Shown here: one piece after another, positions 197 to 10,176 of the stretch
Layout of the letters: every line of letters begins with the position of its first letter
Numbering within the stretch: the stretch's first letter is position 1
DNA from: an uncultured Isoptericola sp.
Lineage (GTDB): Bacteria > Actinomycetota > Actinomycetes > Actinomycetales > Cellulomonadaceae
DNA: 64,000 nucleotides
Assembly: GCA_947497265.1 (NCBI GenBank)
Contig: CANMFP010000013.1
Location: 1 to 64,000 of the forward strand
Direction of reading: 5' to 3'
The notes under the pieces: model-generated
Databases searched by the model: none
Told to the model about the DNA's origin: nothing
What the model saw: only the letters and a program-made list of their open reading frames with translations
Made by a program: the position numbers and the translations under genes

Positions 197-213
197 GGCA
201 GAACGAATCAAGA

Positions 214-250
214 GCGCCCCCCGGCTCCAGCTTGGGAACCCGGGGGGCGC
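214..250 (+). terminator. Rho-independent-type terminator after the HTH gene
   Basis: An 11-bp perfect stem (GCGCCCCCCGG pairing with CCGGGGGGCGC) with a 15-nt loop is followed by CTTTCGG. It sits 18 bp after the HTH stop codon. The minus-strand SecB-like gene ends at 313, so the hairpin may serve transcripts from both sides. Confidence 0.7.
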
Positions 251-312
251 CTTTCGGCTTCAGACAACCGCGGGGCAAACCCGGCTGCCGGCTGTGCTCC
301 CCAGATATACGA

Positions 313-789
313 CTAGTTGTCCAATTCAACGACATGGTCATCAGGGAATGCACTCAGCGGCTCAAGCATGTCCAGGGTGAATGGTGGATAGCCCATTCGC
401 TGGACCGCTGATTGGACGGCCTCGCGCGCGAACGGATGGATGTTCACCAATCCAATAATTGCGGAAAACGCCACCCCGTCATCTTCGGCAATGGATTCAT
501 CATCACGCTTTCGGTACGTCGCAACATGCTCGACGCGCACCCGCCAAGCCTCCAACTCCGGGTCGTCGTCAGCCGTTGCGGTGACGTTGTAGCGCGCGAA
601 AACATCGAACTGGCGATCCTCCACGCGGTCTCGCGCTTTGAACTGAATCTCGGTCTCTACGCTCATCGGGCCCTCAATAGAAGGGTGAGCGCAGCGCATA
701 TCCGAGTGAGCCACCCGTATATCGGCAAGGTCGCAAACGTTGTGCACCCTCGCAGCACGCTCGCGCAATTCGGCCACGGTGGACTTCAT
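313..789 (-). CDS. SecB-like chaperone of a toxin-antitoxin-chaperone (TAC) module
   Basis: This 158-aa protein has the size of SecB. Its C-terminal part reads HPFAREAV...RMGYPPFTLDML, the pattern that ends SecB and the SecB-like TAC chaperone Rv1957 of M. tuberculosis (YPYIREYV...LALPPLTLEIL). Its ATG overlaps the antitoxin stop as ATGA, so it is the third gene of a higB-higA-secB operon, the same order as Rv1955-Rv1956-Rv1957. In that family the chaperone binds a C-terminal extension of the antitoxin and keeps it stable, so loss of chaperone frees the toxin. That role is known for the family and inferred here. Sequence similarity was judged by eye; general SecB function in export is unlikely in an actinobacterium. 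Confidence 0.72.
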   Translation of the reverse strand: MKSTVAELRERAARVHNVCDLADIRVAHSDMRCAHPSIEGPMSVETEIQFKARDRVEDRQFDVFARYNVTATADDDPELEAWRVRVEHVATYRKRDDESIAEDDGVAFSAIIGLVNIHPFAREAVQSAVQRMGYPPFTLDMLEPLSAFPDDHVVELDN

Positions 790-1160
790 GCGGCACCGTT
801 CTTGACCACGCGCAGATGACTCTCGTTGTGCCTATATGAGTCGACGGAGTAGCCGCCATGAGCTGGCCGCGAATCGAGCCGGACGCTGCGAGACTGGGCC
901 CGCTTGTCGACCAGCTGAACCTCTATCCCAAAGTCAAGGACATGCAGCATATCTGAAAGACTTCTGAGGGAAAGATTGCGCTGCCCACTGAGTCGCTGAC
1001 TCACCGCTGACCTTGACAAATCTAGCTCTTCGGCGAGGTCGGCGCGGTTAAGACCGCGGCTATGAAGCGCTTCCTCTACAAGTTCGGAAGCCCCGAGCAG
1101 CAGACGTTCCTGGTCAAGAACTCTCTCACTCGTGGTCGTACTCTTGAACCAGTTACTCAT
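786..1160 (-). CDS. higA: HigA-type HTH antitoxin with C-terminal extension
   Basis: 124 aa. The start at 1160 is preceded by GGAGGGGG and overlaps the toxin stop (ATGA). Residues ~38-75 (NRADLAEELDLSRSAVSQRLSGQRNLS) form a clear Cro/C1-type HTH. A ~45-residue tail rich in polar residues follows (to NGAA). In TAC systems such a tail after the HTH is the chaperone-addiction region bound by the SecB-like protein, which matches the downstream neighbour. The protein presumably neutralises the upstream HigB-like toxin and represses the operon. The gene order toxin first, antitoxin second is the HigBA arrangement. Confidence 0.75.
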   Translation of the reverse strand: MSNWFKSTTTSERVLDQERLLLGASELVEEALHSRGLNRADLAEELDLSRSAVSQRLSGQRNLSLRSLSDMLHVLDFGIEVQLVDKRAQSRSVRLDSRPAHGGYSVDSYRHNESHLRVVKNGAA

Positions 1161-1540
1161 GATGGACCCCCTCCATAGATTCGCTGGGCCTTCTTTGCTT
1201 CTGCGGCCACTCGTTTGTCCTTCGGCTTTCTCAGACCGTGAGTCGCATACCAAATGCGTCCCCGGGAAACCACGTAGAGGCGCCATCCGGGGCCCCTGTG
1301 AACCTTGATCTCATCGACCGGTGGGCTTCCGGGAACGTTCAGCCTTCGCATGGCGTCGGGGGACCGTAGGAAGCCTCGCTCGCAGAGCATCTCTAGTCGC
1401 GCCTTGAAGGCCGCCTGGTAGTGGCCAGACAGGCCTTCTAGGAAGTCAAACGCCGGACATGAGCCATCATCGAGGACTACCCCAACAACTTGCCCCTTTC
1501 GCCCTGTTTCGAGCGGCTGCACCGCCGGTGGTGTAGACAT
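1157..1540 (-). CDS. higB: HigB/RelE-superfamily toxin
   Basis: 127 aa. The C-terminal half contains DEIKVHRGPGWRLYVVSRGRIWYATHGLRKPKDK. This is the RelE/HigB (phage Gp49-like) core, in which basic and aromatic residues around R-L-Y and H-G-x-x-K form the mRNA-cleaving surface. Family members are ribosome-dependent or free mRNA interferases. It is the first gene of the three-gene TAC operon and overlaps the antitoxin by 4 nt. ATG 1540 is preceded only by AAGGT, so the start is moderately certain. The position near one end of a mobile element is typical of addiction or anti-phage modules. Confidence 0.75.
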   Translation of the reverse strand: MSTPPAVQPLETGRKGQVVGVVLDDGSCPAFDFLEGLSGHYQAAFKARLEMLCERGFLRSPDAMRRLNVPGSPPVDEIKVHRGPGWRLYVVSRGRIWYATHGLRKPKDKRVAAEAKKAQRIYGGGPS

Positions 1541-1706
1541 ACCTTAACCGCGCCCAGCGCGGCGGGCAAGCCAGGGGGTCTGCGATGCGAGGGCCCGATG
1601 GGGTCGCAGCGCGAACGTCAGAGGGCTCATGCCACCGGACCCTACCTGCGGAGATGCCGGTACGCTCCGGCGAGGCAACAGTCGCTTTCAACTTTCACCC
1701 GCCCCG

Positions 1707-1988
1707 CTAGCGCCTCGTGACCGCTGACGCCCAGAGCCAGGCGAACCCCTCGCGTCCCGCAGGGTCGATGTAGCGCACGTAGACAGCCTTGGGCGTCCAG
1801 GCCAGCGCTTCACCGGTAGCTTCGAATGTCCGCCCCTTGCCGTCTGTGACCCAGGCGGTCACGGGCACGGGGTCAACAGGTCGCGTCGGTGGCTCCTGCC
1901 TCGCTTGCGGGGGCACCTCCGTGGCGAAGTCGCGCAGCGGTACCCGTTCAATCGCCTGGTCTCCACCCGCGCGTCGATTCGAACGCAT
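1707..1988 (-). CDS. Small phage-type protein of unknown function
   Basis: 93 aa from ATG 1988; the first ~42 residues are low-complexity and proline-rich. The compact conserved-looking part begins at VTAWVTDGKGRTFEATGEAL and ends WLWASAVTRR. A GTG at 1862 would start exactly there and give a 51-aa protein, which I think is at least as likely. The ATG at 1988 lies inside the perfect LexA-type palindrome at 1979-1994, another reason to prefer the downstream start. No function is recognised. The gene follows the HTH protein gene with a 9-nt gap and precedes the TAC operon on the same strand. Confidence 0.5.
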   Translation of the reverse strand: MRSNRRAGGDQAIERVPLRDFATEVPPQARQEPPTRPVDPVPVTAWVTDGKGRTFEATGEALAWTPKAVYVRYIDPAGREGFAWLWASAVTRR

Positions 1989-1994
1989 GTTCGA
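1979..1994. promoter_or_regulatory. LexA (SOS) box
   Basis: The sequence TCGAACGCATGTTCGA is a perfect match to the actinobacterial LexA consensus TCGAAC-N4-GTTCGA, extended to an 18-bp palindrome by flanking T and A. It lies between two minus-strand element genes, 1707-1988 and 1998-2237. DNA-damage control of an element gene next to a TAC module and an Xis-like gene would fit induction of an integrated phage-like element. The site is seen directly; the regulation is inferred. Confidence 0.75.
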
Positions 1995-1997
1995 AGG

Positions 1998-2237
1998 CTA
2001 CCGCAGCGGCCGCGCTCCCCTGCCCCGTCGTGGCGTACCCGTCCGGTCGAGACTACGACGGACGGCCGTCTGCGTGCGCCCCGTCAGCTCGCCGATCTCG
2101 CGCAACGACCGCCCGGCCGTGTACTCCGCAGCGACGAACGTGTCGAACCGCTCGACTTGGAACGGGTTGTATCCGTTCTTGAGGTCACCCCGAAACTGCG
2201 GCAGCACCTCGAGCACGGGCCGCGACGGGTACGACAT
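1998..2237 (-). CDS. Small HTH-domain protein
   Basis: 79 aa from ATG 2237, which overlaps the stop of the upstream Xis-like gene (TGA/ATG). After an N-terminal stretch (MSYPSRPVLEVLPQFRGDL) residues ~38-70 read AAEYTAGRSLREIGELTGRTQTAVRRSLDRTG. This is a recognisable helix-turn-helix of the kind found in sigma-70 region 4 and Homeodomain-like resolvase HTHs. The tail is Arg-rich (RRGRGARPLR). It is likely a small DNA-binding regulator of the element and translationally coupled to the excisionase-like gene. Its target is unknown; the LexA box lies just past its 3' end. Confidence 0.6.
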   Translation of the reverse strand: MSYPSRPVLEVLPQFRGDLKNGYNPFQVERFDTFVAAEYTAGRSLREIGELTGRTQTAVRRSLDRTGTPRRGRGARPLR

Positions 2238-2479
2238 CAGTCGTCGGACTCCTCGGGGGCCTCGTCCTGCACGTCCCCGCGCTCCACGGCCTCTCGCGTG
2301 GCGGCGTACTGGCGCTCGATGTACTCCTCGAGCTTGGTCCGATCGATCCGCCACACCTTCTTCGGACCGACCTGGATCGCCGGCAGGTCGCCGTTCTTGA
2401 GGATCGTGTACACCTGGGCCTTAGTAACCGCCAGCTCGTCGGACACCTGCTTCAGGTCAAGGAATCGCTTCGCTGTCAC
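2237..2479 (-). CDS. Excisionase/AlpA-like MerR-type HTH protein
   Basis: 80 aa from GTG 2479. The sequence VSDELAVTKAQVYTILKNGDLPAIQVGPKKVWRI is the winged-helix excisionase signature (HTH_17/Xis/AlpA): HTH, then G-D-L-P-A-x-x-V-G, then a wing with W-R-I. An acidic tail (DVQDEAPEESDD) follows. Such proteins bend DNA at att sites as recombination directionality factors or act as small regulators. It is a candidate partner for the serine integrase at the right end, though serine-integrase RDFs belong to many families, so this is inference. The SD before the GTG is weak. Confidence 0.7.
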   Translation of the reverse strand: MTAKRFLDLKQVSDELAVTKAQVYTILKNGDLPAIQVGPKKVWRIDRTKLEEYIERQYAATREAVERGDVQDEAPEESDD

Positions 2480-2530
2480 GGGGAGCAGTCTGCCAGCGAT
2501 AGTGTCGGACCCGCCCGATACGTTCCGCTC

Positions 2531-2812
2531 GTGGCACTCATAATCACCCTGTACATCCTCGCGGCCATTCTGCCCATCGCTGGGTTCGGACGTCTGCTCT
2601 GGCGTATCCAGGGCCGCTTGACTGACGCCGAGCGTCAGGCTGCGGAGCGCGGGCATTCGACCCCGACCGTCGACGATGTAGACGCCATGCTTGGTCGCGA
2701 CATCCGGACGCCGTTGCTCGAGGAGCGACGAGCACTGGTTTGGGACATCGCGTTCGTAGGCACGGGCCTGTTATTCGGCGCCGTGGCGAGCGTCTGGTCA
2801 CTGTTCATCTAG
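2531..2812 (+). CDS. Small membrane protein with two TM segments
   Basis: 93 aa from GTG 2531. Residues 2-24 (ALIITLYILAAILPIAGFG) and ~72-92 (IAFVGTGLLFGAVASVWSLF) are hydrophobic helices separated by a charged ~45-residue cytoplasmic-type loop rich in R, E and D. It is divergent from the Xis-like gene with 51 bp between, so the two promoters must overlap. A strong terminator follows 20 bp after the stop. No family is recognised. Possible roles for a small inner-membrane protein of an integrated element include superinfection exclusion or lysis control, but nothing in the sequence decides. Confidence 0.6.
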   Translation: MALIITLYILAAILPIAGFGRLLWRIQGRLTDAERQAAERGHSTPTVDDVDAMLGRDIRTPLLEERRALVWDIAFVGTGLLFGAVASVWSLFI

Positions 2813-2832
2813 CAATCGCCGCTCGCACAGAG

Positions 2833-2862
2833 GCGCCCCCGGTCCGTCTGGACCGGGGGCGC
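2833..2862. terminator. Bidirectional terminator hairpin
   Basis: A 13-bp perfect stem (GCGCCCCCGGTCC / GGACCGGGGGCGC) with the loop GTCT is followed by TCTTCTCGTC. It lies between the convergent genes 2531-2812 (+) and 2871-3029 (-), so it can terminate both. Confidence 0.75.
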
Positions 2863-2870
2863 TCTTCTCG

Positions 2871-3029
2871 TCATCCCATCCGGGTGCAGTGCTGGCAACG
2901 CCGGTTGCCACCGGTATCGGGTCTGCGGTTGCGCGGCGGGATCCGGCTTCCCGACGGACAGTCATCGTGATCGTGGTAGACGTCCGGGTCGGTGGGGTCG
3001 CTGGAGTGGTACGGGCTGACCTTCGCCAT
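2871..3029 (-). CDS. 52-aa phage-type protein with Cys-x-x-Cys motif
   Basis: This short gene starts at ATG 3029 behind a very good SD (AAAGGAG, 6 nt spacing) and ends at TGA 2871-2873. It begins MAKVSPYHSSDPTDPDVYHD, contains HDDC near residue 24, the basic stretch IPPRNRRPDTGGNRRC, and the terminal CQHC motif, then ends TRMG. Three cysteines plus several histidines suggest a small zinc-binding fold. Similar small proteins starting MAKVSPYHS occur in actinobacterial integrative elements and phages, from memory and not checked. Function is unknown. Confidence 0.65.
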   Translation of the reverse strand: MAKVSPYHSSDPTDPDVYHDHDDCPSGSRIPPRNRRPDTGGNRRCQHCTRMG

Positions 3030-3170
3030 GTTCGGCTCCTTTGCCGGTAGCGCGTCGACTGTCCTGCCGAACGCTACCTACGTGCATGCCCTGGCGCTGG
3101 GGGCAAGCGGGTGAAACTCGCTGGCCCTACCGTGGGCACGGCAGTCACGACGACGAGGGAGTCGAGCACG

Positions 3171-3443
3171 ATGGCACGCGACAACGACCAGATCATCAGC
3201 CACCTCCGCAGCATTGAAACGCTGCTCGGCGACCTCAACGCGATCCGACACGGAGAGTATGAGCCGCCGAAGGGCGCCAGCTCGAACGATCGCCGCCCGC
3301 CGATGGCGACGCCGGACGACATCTACACGCTCCTGGAGGGCATCGAGTCGCGCCTCCAGCGGCAGAACGTGCTCCTGTGGCAGATCGGTGCGGCGATCAC
3401 GAAGGACGAAGATTCTTGGGCGAGGAAGGTGCAGGACTACTGA
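3171..3443 (+). CDS. Hypothetical coiled-coil-like small protein
   Basis: 90 aa from ATG 3171, preceded by GAGGGAG. An upstream GTG at 3111 would add 20 residues but lacks an SD. The sequence has two amphipathic segments, NDQIISHLRSIETLLGDLNAI and DDIYTLLEGIESRLQRQNVLL, with heptad-like leucine/isoleucine spacing, joined by a proline-rich linker. It ends 7 nt inside the 3' end of the convergent ART-Nudix gene. No family is recognised; a small oligomeric accessory protein is possible. Confidence 0.55.
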   Translation: MARDNDQIISHLRSIETLLGDLNAIRHGEYEPPKGASSNDRRPPMATPDDIYTLLEGIESRLQRQNVLLWQIGAAITKDEDSWARKVQDY

Positions 3444-4624
3444 GCCTGCTCCAGCAGCGCCCGCAGCTCGGGCCAGGTCTTCGCGAGCCCAGGATGCAGG
3501 TTGAGGCTGTCGACGTCGTCGAGGCGGACCCAGCGCAGATCTTCCGTCTCAGGCGAGTCCGTGTTCACGTCGAGCTTGCGGTCCGCGACGGCCAGAACCG
3601 TCGTGTAGTGCCAGTCCGCCCCATGGCTGTCATCGCGGTACTTTCCCACGATGTCGAGCGCTGAGACGTCCAGGGCCGTCTCCTCGACTGTCTCTCGCAG
3701 CGCGGCCGTTTGGTCGTCCTCGCCAGGCTCGAGAGCGCCGCCCGGAATGCTCCAGGCGTTGCCCTCCTCCGAGTGGTCGAACCGCAGCTGTAGCAGTACG
3801 TGCGTTGCGCGACGCTTGCGCCGCAGCCCGACTAGGAGCCCCGCGGCGCCCAGGTCACCCCAATGCGCCGCGCAGTCACAGGGCCGCTCGGGGACCTCCT
3901 CGACGTTGAGTCCGGTGGTATCGACGACCCACTCATCGCTGTATGCACGGGGCGCCCACCGAGTTCCGCTGACCCCGTCACGAGTGCCCGTCTCTCCGAT
4001 CTCGAACCGCTGCAGTCCGAGGACCGCAGACGGCGGAACATCGGTGAGGCGATAGATCTTGTGCGGCGCGTTCCCGACGAACCACCGCCGGTGCGTACCG
4101 AACAGCTCGGCGTGGGAGCGGCTCGACGTCCACGACAACCCGCTCGCACCCTCCGCCGTCGCCGCCCGATACAGCACCGGCACTTCGCTCGGGCGGTCCG
4201 TGCTGTACGGCCTTGAGGAGTCGCGATGCTTGTCGTCGTACTCGGTGTACCCGGCGGCTCGGAACATCTCGGTCCACTGCTCGGCCGACAGGCGCAGCAG
4301 CGGCACCATGCAGTGGGCGTACACCCAGAAGACCAGCTCTCGCAGGACCTTCTTCCGCAGGCCGTGTGTGTACAGGTCCCATAGCAGGCGAGGCGCGACG
4401 ACATGCTGCGCATGCTTCTGCGGGATCGCGCTCGGTCTCATGAACGCGGCGAGCGTGGGGACCCCGCAGCAGACTCGAACCTCCGCGGGGTCGAAGCGCC
4501 ACGGCTGGTCCAGCACGCGCACGAATTCGGACACCGACCACTCTGCCGGCGCAGGGGTGAGCGCCGGGTGGTTCGGATCGTTGAGCTTGGCGCCGCAGTC
4601 GGGGCAGCGCTCGGTCTTGGGCAT
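3437..4624 (-). CDS. Zn-ribbon / ADP-ribosyltransferase-like / Nudix fusion protein
   Basis: 395 aa. The N-terminus has CPDC (residues 7-10) and C52-C53, probably a zinc site. Residues ~147-240 resemble an R-S-E class ADP-ribosyltransferase: VPVLYRAA with R153, GLSWTSS with S164-W-T166 and an alanine/phenylalanine helix after it, then DEWVVD with E231. Residues ~262-390 form a Nudix hydrolase; the box at 295-320 (GGALEPGEDDQTAALRETVE then ETALDV) satisfies G-x5-E-x7-R-E-x2-E-E, although the canonical Gly near its end is Ala. ART enzymes use NAD+ and many Nudix enzymes cleave ADP-ribose or NAD-like compounds, so the pairing suggests linked NAD/ADP-ribose chemistry, possibly defence or host takeover. 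The Nudix call is firm, the ART call is by motif pattern only. It is a single gene within the element. Confidence 0.65.
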   Translation of the reverse strand: MPKTERCPDCGAKLNDPNHPALTPAPAEWSVSEFVRVLDQPWRFDPAEVRVCCGVPTLAAFMRPSAIPQKHAQHVVAPRLLWDLYTHGLRKKVLRELVFWVYAHCMVPLLRLSAEQWTEMFRAAGYTEYDDKHRDSSRPYSTDRPSEVPVLYRAATAEGASGLSWTSSRSHAELFGTHRRWFVGNAPHKIYRLTDVPPSAVLGLQRFEIGETGTRDGVSGTRWAPRAYSDEWVVDTTGLNVEEVPERPCDCAAHWGDLGAAGLLVGLRRKRRATHVLLQLRFDHSEEGNAWSIPGGALEPGEDDQTAALRETVEETALDVSALDIVGKYRDDSHGADWHYTTVLAVADRKLDVNTDSPETEDLRWVRLDDVDSLNLHPGLAKTWPELRALLEQAQ

Positions 4625-4666
4625 GTTCGGTTCCTCGTTGTCGGTGCCTCACGGGACACTCCGGGC

Positions 4667-5191
4667 ATGGATCTCGAGTCGTGGTTGGGCATCGGTGGCG
4701 CCGCCTTGGCCGCAGCGGCACTCGTGGTCGCCGTCCTGGCCCGCAAGGACTCGAAGCGCTCCGCGGACGCAGCAGACGACTCGGCCGCCTCCTCCAGGCG
4801 CTCAGCGGACGCCTCAGAACGCGCGTCAGAGATCAGCGAGCTAGAGGCCAAGCGCCGCGTGGAGCGCAGAGACGTCGTCTGGAAGCACTTCGAGGACGTC
4901 TCGACGCCGGGCCTATTCGTGTGGCGGAACGACGGCAGCACAACCGCCTACGACGTCACCGCTGTCGTCTACGTGAAAGATGAGCGGATAGAGAAGGATG
5001 TTGGGACGCTGAGACCAGGTGAGGACTTCGTGGTCGACGGATCCGAGATCCACAAGCGCGCAACTGAAGAGTGGCGCCGCGCAGCTGAGCAGGGAATCTT
5101 CTTCGGGCCAGGTCTCGGACAGTTCGCGAGGATCAGTTGGTCCAGCGAGCTGGGTACGCCGAGCATCGAAACGGTCCCGCGCCAGGAGTAG
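4667..5191 (+). CDS. Membrane-anchored coiled-coil protein
   Basis: 174 aa from ATG 4667, divergent from the ART-Nudix gene (43 bp apart). Residues ~5-25 (SWLGIGGAALAAAALVVAVLA) are one TM helix. Residues 27-70 are a Ser/Ala/Glu/Arg-rich heptad region (KRSADAADDSAASSRRSADA and following). The C-terminal ~100 residues look like a beta-rich domain (GLFVWRNDGSTTAYDVTAVV, VGTLRPGEDFVVDGSE, GQFARISWSSELG), the type found in many soluble or periplasmic domains of unknown function in actinobacteria. Topology with the C-terminal domain in the cytoplasm is likely because positively charged residues follow the helix. Function is unknown. Confidence 0.6.
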   Translation: MDLESWLGIGGAALAAAALVVAVLARKDSKRSADAADDSAASSRRSADASERASEISELEAKRRVERRDVVWKHFEDVSTPGLFVWRNDGSTTAYDVTAVVYVKDERIEKDVGTLRPGEDFVVDGSEIHKRATEEWRRAAEQGIFFGPGLGQFARISWSSELGTPSIETVPRQE

Positions 5192-5371
5192 CACCACCCC
5201 CGCCGCCATCCCCCTCCCCTCCCTGACCGGTCGTTCCCCCCGGCGTAACGACTTACACACACGGAGGATCCGAGAAGTCCGCCCGTGTGGAAAAACGCGG
5301 AGAGAGATAGGGCGCTATGCCCAAGGGGGCGCCTACAGGCGGGGGTGGGGGGCACATGCCCCGTGCCCACA

Positions 5372-5407
5372 CAAGAGGACGGGTCCGCGTTGGGACCCGA
5401 CCTCTTG
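5372..5407. terminator. Bidirectional hairpin between convergent transcripts
   Basis: Two 7-bp perfect arms (CAAGAGG, then CGGGTCC; GGACCCG, then CCTCTTG) are separated by one A-A mismatch and a 6-nt loop. It ends 7 bp before the stop of the last gene of the minus-strand replication operon and lies downstream of the plus-strand gene 4667-5191. The preceding 180 bp (5192-5371) are GC-rich with no recognisable gene. Confidence 0.65.
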
Positions 5408-5413
5408 CTGTCG

Positions 5414-5653
5414 TCATCGCGGCAGAATGTCGTCCGGTGTCTGGCCTTCGGGCATCGGGAACAGGTCAGTGACTGGACGCCCGTCAGCGAGTCGGGGCAT
5501 CAGCCTCAGCCGGTGTCGGTGTCCGTCGTGGTCGCGCTCGTGACTGATCTCGACACCGATCGGAACTCGCGTCGTGTCGAGCGTTCCATCCGAGTTGCGC
5601 GGCAGGTACGGATAGTCGCCGAGCGGTCCCGGCTCGAGCATGTCGTGAGCCAT
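5414..5653 (-). CDS. Small hypothetical phage-type protein
   Basis: 79 aa; its ATG overlaps the stop of the upstream gene. It is hydrophilic with many His, Asp and Pro residues (ISHERDHDGHRHRLRLMPRL) and ends EGQTPDDILPR. It is the last gene of a run of eight or nine overlapping minus-strand genes reaching back to 8030. No family is recognised. Confidence 0.5.
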   Translation of the reverse strand: MAHDMLEPGPLGDYPYLPRNSDGTLDTTRVPIGVEISHERDHDGHRHRLRLMPRLADGRPVTDLFPMPEGQTPDDILPR

Positions 5654-6126
5654 CAGCTCACCTCATCCGGATGCGCAGGGATGACGCTCTGGTCGTCGAT
5701 GAGGCCACCCGCTGCGGACTCCACGACCGTCGAGTGCATCGAGCCCAGGAACTCCGGAAACGTGGTGTCGATGGCGCGCAGCATAGGCAGGGGAGGGTCC
5801 TTCTCCAGGACCGTTGCGGCCTGCTCCGCTTGGTTCCGTGCCCACCCTCGGAACTGGCGGTGTGCGTGGTAGGAGATGTAAGCGTTCCATGCGCCCTGGA
5901 GGTCGCCCTGCGCCGCAGCCTTGGTGGCCTGGTGGAAGATGGGCGGCTCCTTCTCGGCAAGCTCGGCGTCCACGTCCTTGGCGCGGTCGTAGACGGTCTG
6001 CGCCCAGTCGTTGCGGGCCTGCTGGCGTCGCTGGGCGTCTGCCGCTGCGGCGGCTGCCTGTTCGGCGTAGAGGGCCTCAAGCTCGGACTCGAGCTCCTGG
6101 ACGGACTTGTTCTTTGTCGCGGTCAT
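5653..6126 (-). CDS. Hypothetical alpha-helical protein of the replication operon
   Basis: 157 aa from ATG 6126 behind AAGGAGAG. Residues ~8-60 form a long charged helix (SVQELESELEALYAEQAAAA, then QRRQQARNDWAQTVYDRAKD) and probably a coiled coil. A second helical region with aromatic residues follows (AYISYHAHRQFRGWARNQAE). The end is PEFLGSMHSTVVESAAGGLI. It has no TM segment and no recognised domain. It overlaps genes on both sides by 4 nt and is probably co-translated with them. Confidence 0.55.
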   Translation of the reverse strand: MTATKNKSVQELESELEALYAEQAAAAAADAQRRQQARNDWAQTVYDRAKDVDAELAEKEPPIFHQATKAAAQGDLQGAWNAYISYHAHRQFRGWARNQAEQAATVLEKDPPLPMLRAIDTTFPEFLGSMHSTVVESAAGGLIDDQSVIPAHPDEVS

Positions 6127-6344
6127 CGGTTGCTCTCCTTCTCGTCGTGGGCGGCCTTGGCCTCGTCGGCGTAGCCGGCCTGGAGCGTCAGGGTGGGCGA
6201 GAGCGGCATGCCCTTGTCCTCCATGCGCTGGATGGCCTCTCGTCGTTCGGCTGCCTCGCTGGTCCACAGGGAGGCCTTGGAGTCCAGGCGGCGCTGGGCT
6301 CGGCCTTCATTGCCGTCGTACAGGGGTGCTGTGGTGTCGGTCAT
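6123..6344 (-). CDS. Small hypothetical protein
   Basis: 73 aa from ATG 6344, which overlaps the stop of the 39-aa gene upstream (ATGA). It is highly charged and helical (GRAQRRLDSKASLWTSEAAE, RREAIQRMEDKG) and ends AAHDEKESNR. The overlap chain on both sides supports it as a real gene. No function is recognised. Confidence 0.5.
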   Translation of the reverse strand: MTDTTAPLYDGNEGRAQRRLDSKASLWTSEAAERREAIQRMEDKGMPLSPTLTLQAGYADEAKAAHDEKESNR

Positions 6345-6460
6345 CGGTTCTCCTCGGTCAGTAGGTCGCGAATCTCGGTCAGGAGTTCGCGTATGTCGTT
6401 GAGTTGTCGGTTCATGACGACGACGCGCATGTAGCGGTCGCCGCCTTCGGGTTCGGTCAT
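6341..6460 (-). CDS. 39-aa small protein
   Basis: The gene runs from ATG 6460 to TGA 6341-6343 and encodes MTEPEGGDRYMRVVVMNRQL followed by NDIRELLTEIRDLLTEENR. The second half is an ideal amphipathic leucine-zipper-like helix (I/L every 3-4 residues). The SD GGAGAAGGA precedes the ATG, and 4-nt overlaps join it to both neighbours, which is the main support for such a short gene. Confidence 0.55.
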   Translation of the reverse strand: MTEPEGGDRYMRVVVMNRQLNDIRELLTEIRDLLTEENR

Positions 6461-6606
6461 TCCTTCTCCTCGGGGATGAAATCAGGGCAGCCGCAGTCGT
6501 GGTCGAGCACCCACGCGCGGCAGCGTTGGTCGGGCAGGATGAGCCCGGGTCGTGAGCCGTGGACGCGGCGGACATGGCCGCAAAAACAGAGGCCGGCTGC
6601 AGTCAC
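6457..6606 (-). CDS. 49-aa Cys-rich small protein
   Basis: The gene runs from GTG 6606 to TGA 6457. The GTG overlaps the stop of the upstream 68-aa gene (GTGA) and the stop overlaps the next ATG (ATGA). It contains CFCGH near the start and HDCGCPDF near the end with one more Cys between, a likely zinc-binding pattern. No family is recognised. It is shorter than most gene-finder cut-offs. Confidence 0.5.
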   Translation of the reverse strand: MTAAGLCFCGHVRRVHGSRPGLILPDQRCRAWVLDHDCGCPDFIPEEKE

Positions 6607-6809
6607 CACAACTCCCCCTGGACGGCGTCGCTCATGTCGAGGCGGTCGTGGTCGGGTACCTCGTAGCGAAGGACGATGTCCTCAGCGGTAGCGGGTCCGA
6701 CCCAGTACACGCGCCCGCCGAAGGCTCCGACCGACTCGAATACGACGACGTCCTCGGTGAGGTGGTGGATGTTCTCGGCCGTGGCACGGATCGGTGTACG
6801 CGTGCTCAT
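6603..6809 (-). CDS. Small hypothetical protein
   Basis: 68 aa from ATG 6809, overlapping the stop of the replication-like gene by 4 nt. It reads as one small beta-rich domain (ENIHHLTEDVVVFESVGAFG, GRVYWVGPATAEDIVLRYEV) with an acidic C-terminus. No family is recognised. Its position directly after the initiator-like gene makes a helper in replication or copy control thinkable but unproven. Confidence 0.5.
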   Translation of the reverse strand: MSTRTPIRATAENIHHLTEDVVVFESVGAFGGRVYWVGPATAEDIVLRYEVPDHDRLDMSDAVQGELW

Positions 6810-7453
6810 GTCAGCTCCAGCTCCTTGACGAGTAGTTCGACGGCTTCGTGGCGGTCGACGTCGCGTGCGCTCATGAGACTGACGACTGCCGTGGTTGCCT
6901 GGGCCTTGCCGTGTTCCGCTTCGAGTCGTTCGACGCCCGCGAGGTACTTGGTCTCTGCGTCGTCCTCGTCGGTCGGCAGTCCGGCAAGTGAGGTGGTAGC
7001 GAAAGAAGAGTTGTCCTCTCGCTTGATTTCCTCTAGTGGTTCCTTAGTTCTCCTAGGCGTCCCGCTTTCCGGGACGCCTAGGCTCCCGGTTTCCGGGACG
7101 CTAGAGGTCCCGCTTTCCGGGACACAGGAGCCTCCCGCTTTTCGGGACGCTGGCCCTGTGAGGGGGTCGACGTGAAGCTGGTAGACAGCCCGCTTTCCGG
7201 TCCGTCCCTGGACAATCCGTGTGACCGCCCCGGCTTCATCGAGCCGCTTGAGCCCTTCGTAGACGCGGCTACGCTTCGACGGCCCTCCAAGGATCTCCGC
7301 GAGCGCGCTCTCTCCGCCGAAGTAGCGGCATGCGGGACGTTCGTCGTTCGTCTCGTCGAGCGCAGTGAGCGCCATGCCGAGGAGTAGCCTCATCGGGCCG
7401 TGCGGCAGGCCCGGATACATGGCCAGGGCCGCCAGGGCGTTCCTCGCTCCCAC
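6806..7453 (-). CDS. Winged-helix replication-initiator-like protein (lambda-O-like)
   Basis: 215 aa. Residues ~1-98 form a winged-helix domain: MYPGLPHGPMRLLLGMALTA, CRYFGGESALAEILGG, then VYEGLKRLDEAGAVTRIVQG and the wing KRAVYQLHVDPL. This is the architecture of phage replication proteins such as O/DnaT-like initiators. Residues ~100-140 are a linker containing three V-P-E-[ST]-G repeats, encoded by DNA that carries four palindromic iterons (7059-7148). The C-terminal ~70 residues are acidic and helical. An initiator gene containing its own origin repeats is exactly how lambda O and ori-lambda are organised. The initiator role is inferred from layout; no helicase gene is visible next to it. 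Confidence 0.6.
   Translation of the reverse strand: MGARNALAALAMYPGLPHGPMRLLLGMALTALDETNDERPACRYFGGESALAEILGGPSKRSRVYEGLKRLDEAGAVTRIVQGRTGKRAVYQLHVDPLTGPASRKAGGSCVPESGTSSVPETGSLGVPESGTPRRTKEPLEEIKREDNSSFATTSLAGLPTDEDDAETKYLAGVERLEAEHGKAQATTAVVSLMSARDVDRHEAVELLVKELELT
7059..7148. repeat. Four iterons inside the initiator-like gene; candidate replication origin
   Basis: Four 17-bp near-palindromes of the form [GC]TCCCG[CG]TTTCCGGGAC occur at 7059-7075, 7083-7099, 7107-7123 and 7132-7148, so their starts are 24, 24 and 25 bp apart. A weaker fifth copy is at 7187-7203 (AGCCCGCTTTCCGGTCC). The flank at 7005-7055 is noticeably AT-richer than its surroundings (for example CTTGATTTCCTCTAGTGG), as expected for a DNA-unwinding element. 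The repeats also encode the V-P-E-S-G repeats of the protein. Confidence 0.65.
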
Positions 7454-7752
7454 TACGCACCACCGCCAAGGATCGAGCGCCAGAAGCCACCCTCAGCAAC
7501 GGCCTCGCCAACGGGGTCCCGTCCACGGATGCCGCCACGGGTGCCGACGTTGAGCGTCGGTCGCCCGCTTCCGAACACCTCGCGCCGCTCGCGCTCCTGG
7601 ACCATCAGGCCGTCGACTTCGGCGACCAGCTGGGCTGGCGTGCGGTAGCGGAGGGCCCGGCGCACGAGCTTCGAGACTCGGGCGGGCGACGTGGCGATGT
7701 CTGCCCGCACGAGAGCCGCGTGCGCTCGGCGGATCACGTCGTCGGGTGTCAC
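7453..7752 (-). CDS. Hypothetical protein of the replication operon
   Basis: 99 aa from GTG 7752, chosen because a strong SD (GGGGGAGAA) precedes it and the GTG overlaps a stop of the upstream frame (GTGA). An in-frame GTG at 7836 would add 28 proline-rich residues without an SD. The sequence TPDDVIRRAHAALVRADIAT, SPARVSKLVRRALRY, TPAQLVAEVDGLMVQERERR is helical with many Arg and Ala residues. The C-terminus is glycine-rich. Its stop overlaps the start of the initiator-like gene. No family is recognised. Confidence 0.5.
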   Translation of the reverse strand: MTPDDVIRRAHAALVRADIATSPARVSKLVRRALRYRTPAQLVAEVDGLMVQERERREVFGSGRPTLNVGTRGGIRGRDPVGEAVAEGGFWRSILGGGA

Positions 7753-8030
7753 GGGGCACACTTCTCCCCCGGCTCCCGTCTCGTGGCTCCCGGGCTTGGG
7801 CTTCGTGGGGATGAGCTCAGGGTATGGCCCCACCACCGCTCAGCAGGGCAGCAATGCGCGAGCGCTGAGCGCCTGTGAGGGGCCGGCGCTTCGGCGACAG
7901 CCCGAGCGACGTAGGCCTCGAGCTTCGCGGCCTTGAGGTCGCGGCGCGCGCGTGAAAGATCGAGGTCGTCAGGCCTTCTGGAACGCGACAGTGCGCCGAC
8001 TCGGGCCTTGTGATGACTGACAGCGGTCAC
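7749..8030 (-). CDS. Small element protein with an apparent C-terminal frameshift
   Basis: The frame opens at GTG 8030 and runs to TGA at 7749-7751 (93 aa). Residues 1-48 (HKARVGALSRSRRPDDLDLS, ARRDLKAAKLEAYVARAV) look like a family of ~70-aa actinobacterial/phage proteins. These usually end in a motif like PLT-x-x-QR-x-x-(I/L)-A-x-LL-x-G-G. That motif (PLTGAQRSRIAALLSGGG) is present, but one frame over, ending at TGA 7817-7819. A one-base indel in the C-run near 7880-7890 would join the halves. The continuing frame overlaps the next GTG neatly, so a functional read-through product is not excluded. First gene of the minus-strand operon. Function is unknown. Confidence 0.5.
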   Translation of the reverse strand: MTAVSHHKARVGALSRSRRPDDLDLSRARRDLKAAKLEAYVARAVAEAPAPHRRSALAHCCPAERWWGHTLSSSPRSPSPGATRREPGEKCAP

Positions 8031-8111
8031 GGGACACCTCGTGAGGTGAATTCATCCGTGGCGTCGCCGGACCTTGACCGCCGTTGGCGTCCTTGCGGAT
8101 TCGCCCCGCCC

Positions 8112-8160
8112 TACTGGGCGTTCTCAAAGAATAGCATGCGTCACGTCGACGCTGCCAGGA
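8112..8160 (-). promoter_or_regulatory. Candidate promoter of the replication operon
   Basis: On the minus strand the sequence TGCTATTCT is an extended -10 (TGn + TATTCT, hexamer at 8133-8128) in an otherwise GC-rich gap between the integrase stop and the first operon gene. A plausible but weak -35 (TGGCAG) lies upstream. The predicted transcript would start near 8121, giving a ~90-nt leader before GTG 8030. Confidence 0.4.
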
Positions 8161-8163
8161 TGG

Positions 8164-9546
8164 CTATGCATGCCACTCGAATGCAATTGTCTCGAGGTCC
8201 ACGTACGGCTCTCCGGGCTTCCACCCGTGAGGGCGCCCCTTACGCCCCTTGTTGATCATGACGACGGCGAGCGCGTCGAGCACAGCGCGCTGCACGTCCA
8301 GCGGGGCGGTCAGGAACGCCTCTCCGGGGCTCGCAGCGCCCAGGACGCCCCCGAGTGCATCGCCGCGCATTGCGCTCGCCAGACGGGCGTTCACGCTCTC
8401 AAGGTCGCTCTCGACGCGCTCCGTCGCACCGCGGAGCTGACGACCGGAGATCGCACCCTCGGCATAGTCGGCCTCGAATGTCGACAGGCGGGCACGCAGA
8501 GATTCCTCCTCGGCCCGTAGGGACTCGATCAGCCCGTCGTCGGACTCCGCCAGCAGGTCGGCCGCATCAGGCTTGGAGAGGACGCCAGCGACTACCTGAC
8601 GCACGTACTCGTCAACGGCGTTCGCGTCTCGGGTGACATGGGAGCCCTCGGTGCAGCGGTAGGCGTGTCGGACCTTCTGCTTCGACGCCCGCAGCGGCCC
8701 GCCGCAGACACCGCAGCGATACAGCCCGGACCCGAGCCACCGTCGCTCCGGCCCCGTGGTAGTCGTGCGGGTTGGGTCGGATAACGTCGCTACGACTCCG
8801 CGCCAGATCTCCTCGGGGATGATCGCGGGCCACGACGCCGCGCCGACAATGTCGCCGCGCTCGTCGATGAGTCCGGCGTTGCGGGGTCGGAGCAGCATGG
8901 TTCGGAGGTTAATGCCGTCGATGCGGCTGCCACGTGTAGTGGTGATCCCCGCTTCGTTGAGTTCGCGAGCGAGCGCGTTCAGCGATCGGCCCGCAAGGAT
9001 GCCGCGTGCGGCGCGGAGCAGCGCATCGGCCTCTGGCGGGCGAACGGTCACGCCGTCGGCCTCGTAGCCGAACGGGCGCGGTCCTCCACGCCACTTCCCC
9101 GCAGCGGCAGCCTGACGCTTGGCGCGCTGCATCCGCTCGCGCGCATGGTCGATCTCGTGCTGTGATGCCGCCCCGAGCATCCGGGCCACCATGCGGCCGG
9201 ATGCCGTCGTGAGGTCCACAGAGCCCGAGCGGACGGTCTGCACAGCGATCTTGTGCTCGTCACAGATGGAGACGAACTCCTCAAGCTCCGCGACCTTGCG
9301 GTGGAGTCGGTCAGAGTGCCAGGCGACGACAGCCGTGGCGCGCCCCTGGCGCAGATCCTCGAGCATGGCGCGATATCCGGGCCTAGGCTTCCCCGAGTAC
9401 GCCGAAAGGTCGTTGTCGGAGTGGACGGCGACCACGTTCCAGCCCAGACGGTCCGCAAGTTCGCGACAGTCGGCTTCCTGGCGGTCGACGCCCAGGCCGG
9501 CGCCCTCGCGGTCCCGGCTGATCCGTACGTAGACGACAGCTTCCAT
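8164..9546 (-). CDS. Large serine recombinase (integrase)
   Basis: 460 aa from ATG 9546 (MEAVVYVRISRD); a GTG at 9558 is an alternative start. The N-terminal resolvase domain carries catalytic Ser10 in YVRIS, the VVAWHSDRLHR arginine motif near 74-84, and the long E-helix (GRMVARMLGAASQHEIDHAR). The recombinase domain spans ~150-255, a zinc ribbon (C278, C281, C298 and nearby ligands) follows, then a coiled coil (~341-395) that controls synapsis and directionality. This is the complete large serine integrase architecture. The gene lies at the extreme end of the element, its start 15 bp from the end of the comM homology, so the attachment site is immediately upstream of the start codon. It catalyses attP x attB integration, and an RDF would be needed for excision. 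Confidence 0.93.
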   Translation of the reverse strand: MEAVVYVRISRDREGAGLGVDRQEADCRELADRLGWNVVAVHSDNDLSAYSGKPRPGYRAMLEDLRQGRATAVVAWHSDRLHRKVAELEEFVSICDEHKIAVQTVRSGSVDLTTASGRMVARMLGAASQHEIDHARERMQRAKRQAAAAGKWRGGPRPFGYEADGVTVRPPEADALLRAARGILAGRSLNALARELNEAGITTTRGSRIDGINLRTMLLRPRNAGLIDERGDIVGAASWPAIIPEEIWRGVVATLSDPTRTTTTGPERRWLGSGLYRCGVCGGPLRASKQKVRHAYRCTEGSHVTRDANAVDEYVRQVVAGVLSKPDAADLLAESDDGLIESLRAEEESLRARLSTFEADYAEGAISGRQLRGATERVESDLESVNARLASAMRGDALGGVLGAASPGEAFLTAPLDVQRAVLDALAVVMINKGRKGRPHGWKPGEPYVDLETIAFEWHA

Positions 9547-9559
9547 AGTGCTGTCCACT

Positions 9560-9592
9560 CTAGATGCTTGACAGGTCGAACCCCGTGCCGGA
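9560..9592. other. Attachment-site junction (element end / comM)
   Basis: ComM homology on the minus strand continues to the codons for G-T-G-F-D-L (9589-9572) and then stops, replaced by S-S-I-stop. The expected continuation in ComM is A-I-A-like hydrophobic sequence. The crossover therefore lies at about 9572-9592, and the integrase begins within 30 bp. The matching half-site and the comM 3' part should be left of the window. Confidence 0.7.
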
Positions 9593-9823
9593 CTTGCGCA
9601 ACGAGGCCGGCGACAGGTTCACCGTGATCTTGCGCTGCGGCCACGTGATCCCGCTGGAGAGCACCGCGGCGCGGACCCGGTCCCGGGACTCGGCGAGCGC
9701 AGCGTCCGGCAGACCCACCAGCGTGAACCCCGGCACGGAGGCCGCGAGCTGCGCCTGCACCTCGACGACGTGGCCCTCCATGCCGCTCAGGGCGACCGAC
9801 GCCGTGGTGCCCAGCCCGCTCAC
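9560..9823 (-). pseudogene. comM: ComM/YifB (Mg-chelatase-like) N-terminal fragment, split by the element
   Basis: The start GTG at 9823 overlaps the yraN stop (GTGA). The 87 codons give VSGLGTTASVALSGMEGHVV, then ETQ-like VEVQAQLAASVPGFTLVGLP and NLSPASLRKSGTGFDL, the conserved N-terminal domain of ComM. The full protein is ~500 aa, with an AAA+ domain after this point that is absent here. ComM is a hexameric helicase that helps branch migration during natural transformation. The gene is interrupted by the element at 9560-9592, so ComM is presumably inactive while the element is integrated. Precise excision would restore it. Confidence 0.88.
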
Positions 9824-10176
9824 AGGACCCCCTGCAGGTGCTCGACCTGTGCCGCACCGGAGCGCGGCAGCACGACGGCCACCACGTCGATGCGGACCTC
9901 GCACCGCGGGGCCGAGCGGCTGTGCAGCCACTCCCCCGTCAGGCGCCTGATCCGGTCGAGCTTCGCCTGCGTGACCGCCTCGGCCGGGTGCCCGAACGCC
10001 GTCCCGCGACGCGTCTTGACCTCGACGACCACGATCGTGGCGTCTCGGCGCGTCACCAGGTCCAGCTCACCGCGGGTACCGCGCCAGTTGCGCTCGATCA
10101 CCTCGTACCCGCGCTCTGTCAGGTAGCGCGCAGCCACCTGCTCTCCGTATCGCCCCACGGCGTCCTTGGCCAGCAC
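9820..10176 (-). CDS. YraN/UPF0102 family nuclease-like protein
   Basis: 118 aa from GTG 10176, preceded by GCGGAGGTGG; the frame continues upstream but only this start has an SD. The sequence contains VGRYGEQVAARYLTERGYEV, NWRGTRGELDLV and VVVEVKTRRGTAFG, the restriction-endonuclease-like fold core with E..D and E-x-K residues (GELDLV, EVKTR). UPF0102 is found next to rnhB and comM across bacteria. Its biochemical role is poorly known; a structure-specific nuclease is suspected for the family. The stop overlaps the comM start. Confidence 0.92.
   Translation of the reverse strand: MLAKDAVGRYGEQVAARYLTERGYEVIERNWRGTRGELDLVTRRDATIVVVEVKTRRGTAFGHPAEAVTQAKLDRIRRLTGEWLHSRSAPRCEVRIDVVAVVLPRSGAAQVEHLQGVL

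Follow-up and report, generated by a model that had tools for sequence, protein, structure and literature searches.

A probable HigBAC-type toxin–antitoxin–chaperone operon on an integrative element of an uncultured Isoptericola and its relatives in phages and mobile elements

The three-gene operon described here very probably encodes a HigBAC-type tripartite toxin–antitoxin–chaperone (TAC) system carried by an integrative element. The window, that is, the whole analysed stretch of 64,000 nucleotides, begins with the first base of contig C13 in a 3.77-Mb genome assembled in 41 contigs, and the operon ends 313 bases from the edge of this contig. Three intact ORFs of 127, 124 and 158 aa occupy positions 1540–313 of the minus strand, and both gene junctions are 4-nt ATGA stop-start overlaps, in agreement with the initial annotation. 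The operon is thus real and intact, and its initial identification as a HigB-HigA-SecB-like module is correct. The operon and its flanks contain the following features.

1157..1540, minus strand: toxin gene, Gp49/DUF891 (HigB/RelE-type), 127 aa; ORF, match to Gp49 (PF05973), RelE-like homologue in Gordonia phage Floral
786..1160, minus strand: antitoxin gene, HTH (Xre/HigA-type), 124 aa; HTH_3, PADLOC profile PDC-M64B, ATGA overlap with the toxin stop codon
789..908, minus strand: C-terminal tail of the antitoxin, residues 85–124, candidate chaperone-addiction region; the core alignment ends at residue 85
313..789, minus strand: SecB-like chaperone gene, 158 aa; PF02556, match to Rv1957
1541..1569, minus strand: weak promoter-like sequence TTGCCC-17 nt-TAAGGT directly 5' of the toxin ATG, found by eye
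213..251, minus strand: G+C-rich, terminator-like inverted repeat 3' of the operon, found by eye (CGCCCCCCGG / CCGGGGGGCG)

A scan for consensus promoters found none 5' of the window toxin gene. In the same place upstream of the toxin start, the related operon of an actinobacterial genome (locus L009) has GTTAAGTT and that of Floral has GTGAAGTT. The inverted repeat at 213..251 is located between the operon and a convergent plus-strand ORF, and the terminator scan returned one site at this repeat, not above chance. The convergent ORF (positions 5–196) is cut by the contig edge; the C-terminal protein portion that it encodes looks like that of an HTH regulator, and no convincing family match was found for it.

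The 158-aa protein matches the SecB family PF02556 with 27.7 bits at a curated cut-off of 26 bits. In a single-sequence search of the PDB at E up to 1, the only match was Rv1957 of Mycobacterium tuberculosis (E 0.0036), and a profile built from three chaperone relatives found Rv1957 at 1.1e-9 and E. coli SecB only at about 0.8. The SecB-like reading of the third gene is thereby upheld. In the profile alignment, D23-I24-R25 of the window chaperone falls on D27-x-R29 of Rv1957, F64 on F67, and Y134-P-P-F137 on L154-P-P-L157 (the numbering of the Rv1957 chain is offset by 3 from that of PMC6377645). These positions of Rv1957 contact the antitoxin peptide or are important in vivo (PMC6377645), and their alignment with the window chaperone supports the TAC reading. 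Two further positions of Rv1957 that contact the chaperone-addiction region (ChAD), Y49 and L108, are threonines in the window chaperone.

The AlphaFold2 models of the chaperone and the toxin were each built from two sequences and have low confidence (pLDDT 46 and 41, respectively). The predicted chaperone consists of a helix, four strands and two helices; its best Foldseek matches are four Rv1957 chains, followed by SecB of Haemophilus influenzae and E. coli, with TM-scores of 0.3–0.4. A SecB fold comes out first in the structure comparison, as the initial annotation would have it, but from a low-confidence model, and the likeness to Rv1957 and SecB lends the assignment weak support.

An ordinary export SecB, acquired by the host and lying beside an unrelated toxin-antitoxin pair, is an extremely improbable reading of the third gene. 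The PF02556 domain and weak matches to export-SecB models would fit this explanation, but with the best NCBI export-SecB equivalog model the protein scores 27.6 bits, where the cut-off is 143, and with another 21.1 against 102.8. Moreover, any SecB match was found only in the window genome and one other among 58 relatives, and the gene, which is part of an integrated element, overlaps that of the antitoxin.

The toxin matches the profile Gp49 (PF05973/DUF891) with an E-value of 7e-4 over profile positions 1–89 of 90, below the curated cut-off of 23.9 bits. The toxins of its clade are likewise below the Gp49 cut-off, and the more distant TAC toxin of locus L015 is above it (7e-9). The domain-profile and PADLOC scans of the window toxin gave no toxin-family match besides Gp49. 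The protein is 39% identical to the annotated RelE-like toxin of Floral. E77, K79, R87, H101 and K105 are invariant in an alignment of five TAC toxins. In the HigB toxin of the M. tuberculosis TAC, E66, R68, R77, K95 and others were proposed to be catalytic, and toxicity needs K58, R68, R77, K95 and K99 (PMC9098466). When aligned by eye, E77, K79, R87 and K105 of the window toxin appear to correspond to E66, R68, R77 and K95. The best Foldseek match of the low-confidence toxin model, M. tuberculosis HigB1, has a non-significant E-value of 0.04, and this likeness weakly supports the assignment. The Gp49 match, albeit below the cut-off, the Floral homologue and the conserved residues of active-site type favor the RelE/HigB-type reading.

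The antitoxin matches HTH_3 (E 5.5e-8) and the PADLOC profile PDC-M64B (5e-10). The B profile of PDC-M64 matches the antitoxins, and the literature searched gave no source for this system. The alignment of the window antitoxin with an 83-aa HTH protein of known structure stops at residue 85, leaving a tail of about 40 residues; among the four clade members the tail length is 39–50 aa. The HTH domain and the tail were thus found as initially annotated, with a length of 40 residues in place of about 45. Y109 is the sole invariant column in the tail alignment of the four clade antitoxins. Comparison of the tail with the mycobacterial ChAD peptide EVPTWHRLSSYRG yields a local ‘SYR’ match that is not significant (p = 0.21). 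ChADs of different TACs have been reported to lack similarity to each other (PMC5105189), and hence this result speaks neither for nor against chaperone addiction.

The toxin, antitoxin and chaperone are homologous to genes 41, 40 and 39 of Floral, which stand in the same order (39, 40 and 32% identity in pairwise comparison). The counterparts in Gordonia phage Pollux are genes 43, 42 and 41, with the chaperone and the toxin matched there too. The Floral operon directly follows the immunity repressor gene and is annotated not as a TAC, but as a RelE-like toxin, an HTH protein and a hypothetical protein. Just 5' of the Floral toxin start there is a perfect 8-bp inverted repeat, GACAATAC-12-GTATTGTC (L002, 5145–5172), a candidate operator; no repeat of this kind was found at L019. 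The latter is a 57-kb viral contig in which the complete operon is flanked by genes for a tail fibre and a head-tail adaptor.

When 395 genomes of the class were searched with a profile, L009 was the best locus (E 3.4e-30), and nine weaker SecB-like loci were also found. In several of the weaker loci the chaperone gene is preceded by an HTH gene, and in some of these a toxin-like gene precedes the HTH gene. The L009 operon and a tyrosine integrase are about 11 kb apart, and the operon lies where the G+C content is lower, at 67.5% versus 71–73%; a tRNA integration site was looked for near this island and not found. A Ppl-like PHP-AAA protein of defence type (L026, 11052–13691) directly adjoins the L009 TAC.

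Thus, the gene order recurs in three independent loci (Floral, L019 and L009) whose proteins are 29–50% identical, and short gene overlaps recur at most junctions across the related operons. This recurrence, together with the SecB, HTH_3 and Gp49 matches and the profile match to Rv1957, indicates that the operon is more than a chance arrangement. The four carriers of the branch are a phage, a viral contig or stretches bearing an integrase on or near which the operon is located.

Members of the branch are rare among 396 genomes of the order and 396 of the phylum. The order-wide search found no further close member and one weak SecB-like match (L023), and the search of the phylum with the toxin as query found no further close member. 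Scans with single sequences gave no match in viral or genome contigs; the alignment scan found nothing in genome contigs and only one contig among the viral ones. No plasmid relatives of the toxin or the chaperone were found.

The chaperones of the window, L009, L019 and Floral find each other by BLAST at E-values from 2e-16 to 2e-39. Rv1957 matches the chaperones of L011 and L012 at 1e-29 or better with 41% identity, and the window chaperone at 5e-5 with 34% identity over 41 aa only; these E-values are relative, as they come from a toy database in which Rv1957 was present as a segment only. Therefore the window operon is not an orthologue of Rv1955–Rv1957, but belongs to a separate branch of the same kind. 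The operon shares with the M. tuberculosis TAC (Rv1955 HigB1, Rv1956 HigA1, Rv1957 SecB-TA) the gene order, the Gp49/HigB-type toxin, the HTH antitoxin with a C-terminal extension and the SecB-like chaperone. It differs in the branch, in the sequence of the tail and in its location on an integrative element. Order and sizes had initially been said to match those of the M. tuberculosis operon; the order does, and the sizes do so only roughly, the antitoxin having 124 aa versus about 149 aa in HigA1 (the latter value is inferred from the ChAD numbering in PMC5105189 and PMC6377645).

The operon could also be a two-gene HigBA system followed by a SecB-like bystander gene that is dispensable for toxin control and has another role, e.g. 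the folding of element or phage proteins. We consider this unlikely. In its favor, chaperone dependence is not readable from sequence, the antitoxin tail has no recognisable ChAD motif, and SecB-like genes also occur in other arrangements, for instance at L003 and L017, without a neighbouring toxin gene. However, the three genes have remained together, tightly overlapping, in four divergent loci that belong to different elements, and the nearest solved relative of the third protein is a TAC chaperone rather than an export SecB. At L003 and L017 the SecB-like genes follow a different gene, encoding 218–252 aa, and not a toxin and an antitoxin; this may be another SecB-associated arrangement.

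On balance, the TAC reading of the window operon is supported by the SecB domain above the cut-off, with Rv1957 as the sole solved relative at E below 0.01, by the HTH antitoxin with its tail, by the conserved Gp49-type toxin residues and by the conservation of the operon in Floral, L019 and L009. It is weakened by the toxin match below the cut-off, the non-significant ChAD match, the threonines in place of Y49 and L108, and the low confidence of the models.

Beyond the operon, the following features of the window relate to the element that carries it.

8164..9558, minus strand: large serine integrase; PHROG 95 (2.7e-90), Resolvase (1.1e-30), Recombinase (5e-7)
9560..9931, minus strand: 5' part of a comM/yifB-type gene; ChlI (PF13541) positions 1–64, 5.9e-20, frame broken after GTGFDL
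2237..2656, minus strand: excisionase/AlpA-like HTH protein; PHROG 66 and 2907 (3e-8 and 5e-7), HTH_17 (4e-9)
6806..7453, minus strand: replication-initiation-like protein; PHROG 270 (1.8e-6)
3437–4624, minus strand: 395-aa protein with a C-terminal NUDIX domain (9e-19); PADLOC PDC-S07 (4e-10)

The serine integrase directly abuts the truncated comM, so that an integrase stands beside an interrupted host gene, and the operon indeed lies on an integrated element. The excisionase-like, replication-initiation-like and NUDIX genes are located between the operon and the integrase. The first two of these genes, the integrase and the occurrence of related operons in real phages give the initial description of the element as phage-like partial support, but no convincing phage structural or packaging gene was found among the ten proteins scanned at 313–9558, and the element runs past the contig edge. 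The NUDIX part of the 3437–4624 protein overlaps a portal-protein profile at 5e-5, and the otherwise unassigned N-terminal part of this protein resembles, on inspection by eye, an ADP-ribosyltransferase.

The 3' part of comM is located on contig C6 (L007, about 7040–7330), beside further element-type genes. The roughly 190 codons between the two parts were not found in the assembly, and a deletion, two insertions or a missing contig may be suspected. C6 may therefore carry either the opposite end of the window element or another element. Next to the 3' part of comM, C6 encodes an XhoI-family restriction endonuclease (1.9e-22) and a type II methylase (PADLOC, 1.7e-194) at L007 2812–5203.

In known TACs the SecB-like chaperone binds and protects the antitoxin tail. 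By analogy, the window operon most likely works in the same way, with a ribosome-dependent mRNase as the effector and with defence, retention of the element or both as the benefit. The HigB-type toxin would cleave mRNA on the ribosome, and the HTH antitoxin would bind the toxin and repress the operon. The tail would keep the antitoxin unstable unless a tetrameric SecB-like chaperone binds to it. If the chaperone were drawn away, e.g. by capsid or tail protein that an infecting phage has just produced, or if the operon were lost, the antitoxin would be degraded and the freed toxin would stop translation. As a result, infections by rival phages would be aborted, the element would be retained, or both.

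Comparison with E. coli HigBAC and CmdTAC makes a phage-defence trigger plausible. According to PMC11980606 and PMC12593503, which cite Mets et al. 2024, E. coli HigBAC is a gp49/HigB-type TAC and aborts infection once it senses the major tail protein of lambda; it shares the HigB-HigA-SecB-like layout with the window operon, to which it was compared by description. E. coli CmdTAC (PD-T4-9) is likewise tripartite with a SecB-like chaperone and is triggered by a phage structural protein, the T4 capsid protein. Its toxin is an ADP-ribosyltransferase, whereas the window toxin is of the Gp49 type, which sets the operon apart from CmdTAC. E. coli MqsRAC protects against T2. The activity of CmdTAC, HigBAC and MqsRAC against phages adds support to the TAC reading.

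Toxin-antitoxin pairs are classical stabilisation modules. A pure addiction device without an anti-phage role, in which the chaperone is a second unstable partner and loss of the operon frees the toxin, is a possibility to be taken seriously, if a minor one. It is compatible with the TAC reading rather than exclusive of it, and the integrative element here and the mobile elements carrying the relatives agree with it. On the other hand, TACs with this layout protect E. coli against phages, whose structural proteins they sense, and the L009 relative stands beside the Ppl-like defence-type gene.

A more specific proposal, which we put forward as doubtful, is that this TAC branch is specialised for phages and integrative elements. 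The chaperone of a prophage would guard a toxin in the immunity region and sense the structural proteins of rivals, ignoring those of the carrier. If so, the late proteins of the carrier must evade the chaperone, or the system must be switched off on induction.

The occurrence of secB-like genes in phages and plasmids has already been noted (PMC4257090), and most TAC chaperones are encoded in regions that show signs of horizontal transfer. So far, TACs have been known chiefly as chromosomal modules of mycobacteria and as anti-phage systems of E. coli. The mobile branch is the interesting angle of the window operon. The Floral and Pollux operons are homologous to it throughout and differ in that they are carried by isolated phages, beside the immunity repressor gene. 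We found no paper describing the Floral operon as a TAC in the literature searched, the coverage of which is incomplete. With a TAC annotated piecemeal beside the immunity repressor of a cultured phage, the branch offers a tractable system (Gordonia terrae 3612 with Floral or Pollux). It would allow one to ask whether chaperone-addicted toxins serve temperate phages in superinfection exclusion, and by what means the carrier phage evades a sensor of structural proteins.

Gordonia phage Wrigley has also been noted to encode a SecB-like protein (PMC9670969). Like the window chaperone, Wrigley gp46 is SecB-like and has an HTH gene upstream of its own gene; it is encoded close to the immunity repressor of a temperate Gordonia phage. 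It was rejected as a member of the clade, having no detectable sequence similarity. Gene 48, which precedes the HTH gene, has no toxin-family match. The genes for gp46, the HTH protein gp47 and gp48 (L029, 8694–10787) fill the slot of the Floral TAC between the immunity repressor and the peptidase, HTH and integrase genes, and are perhaps a second, unrelated TAC-like cassette.
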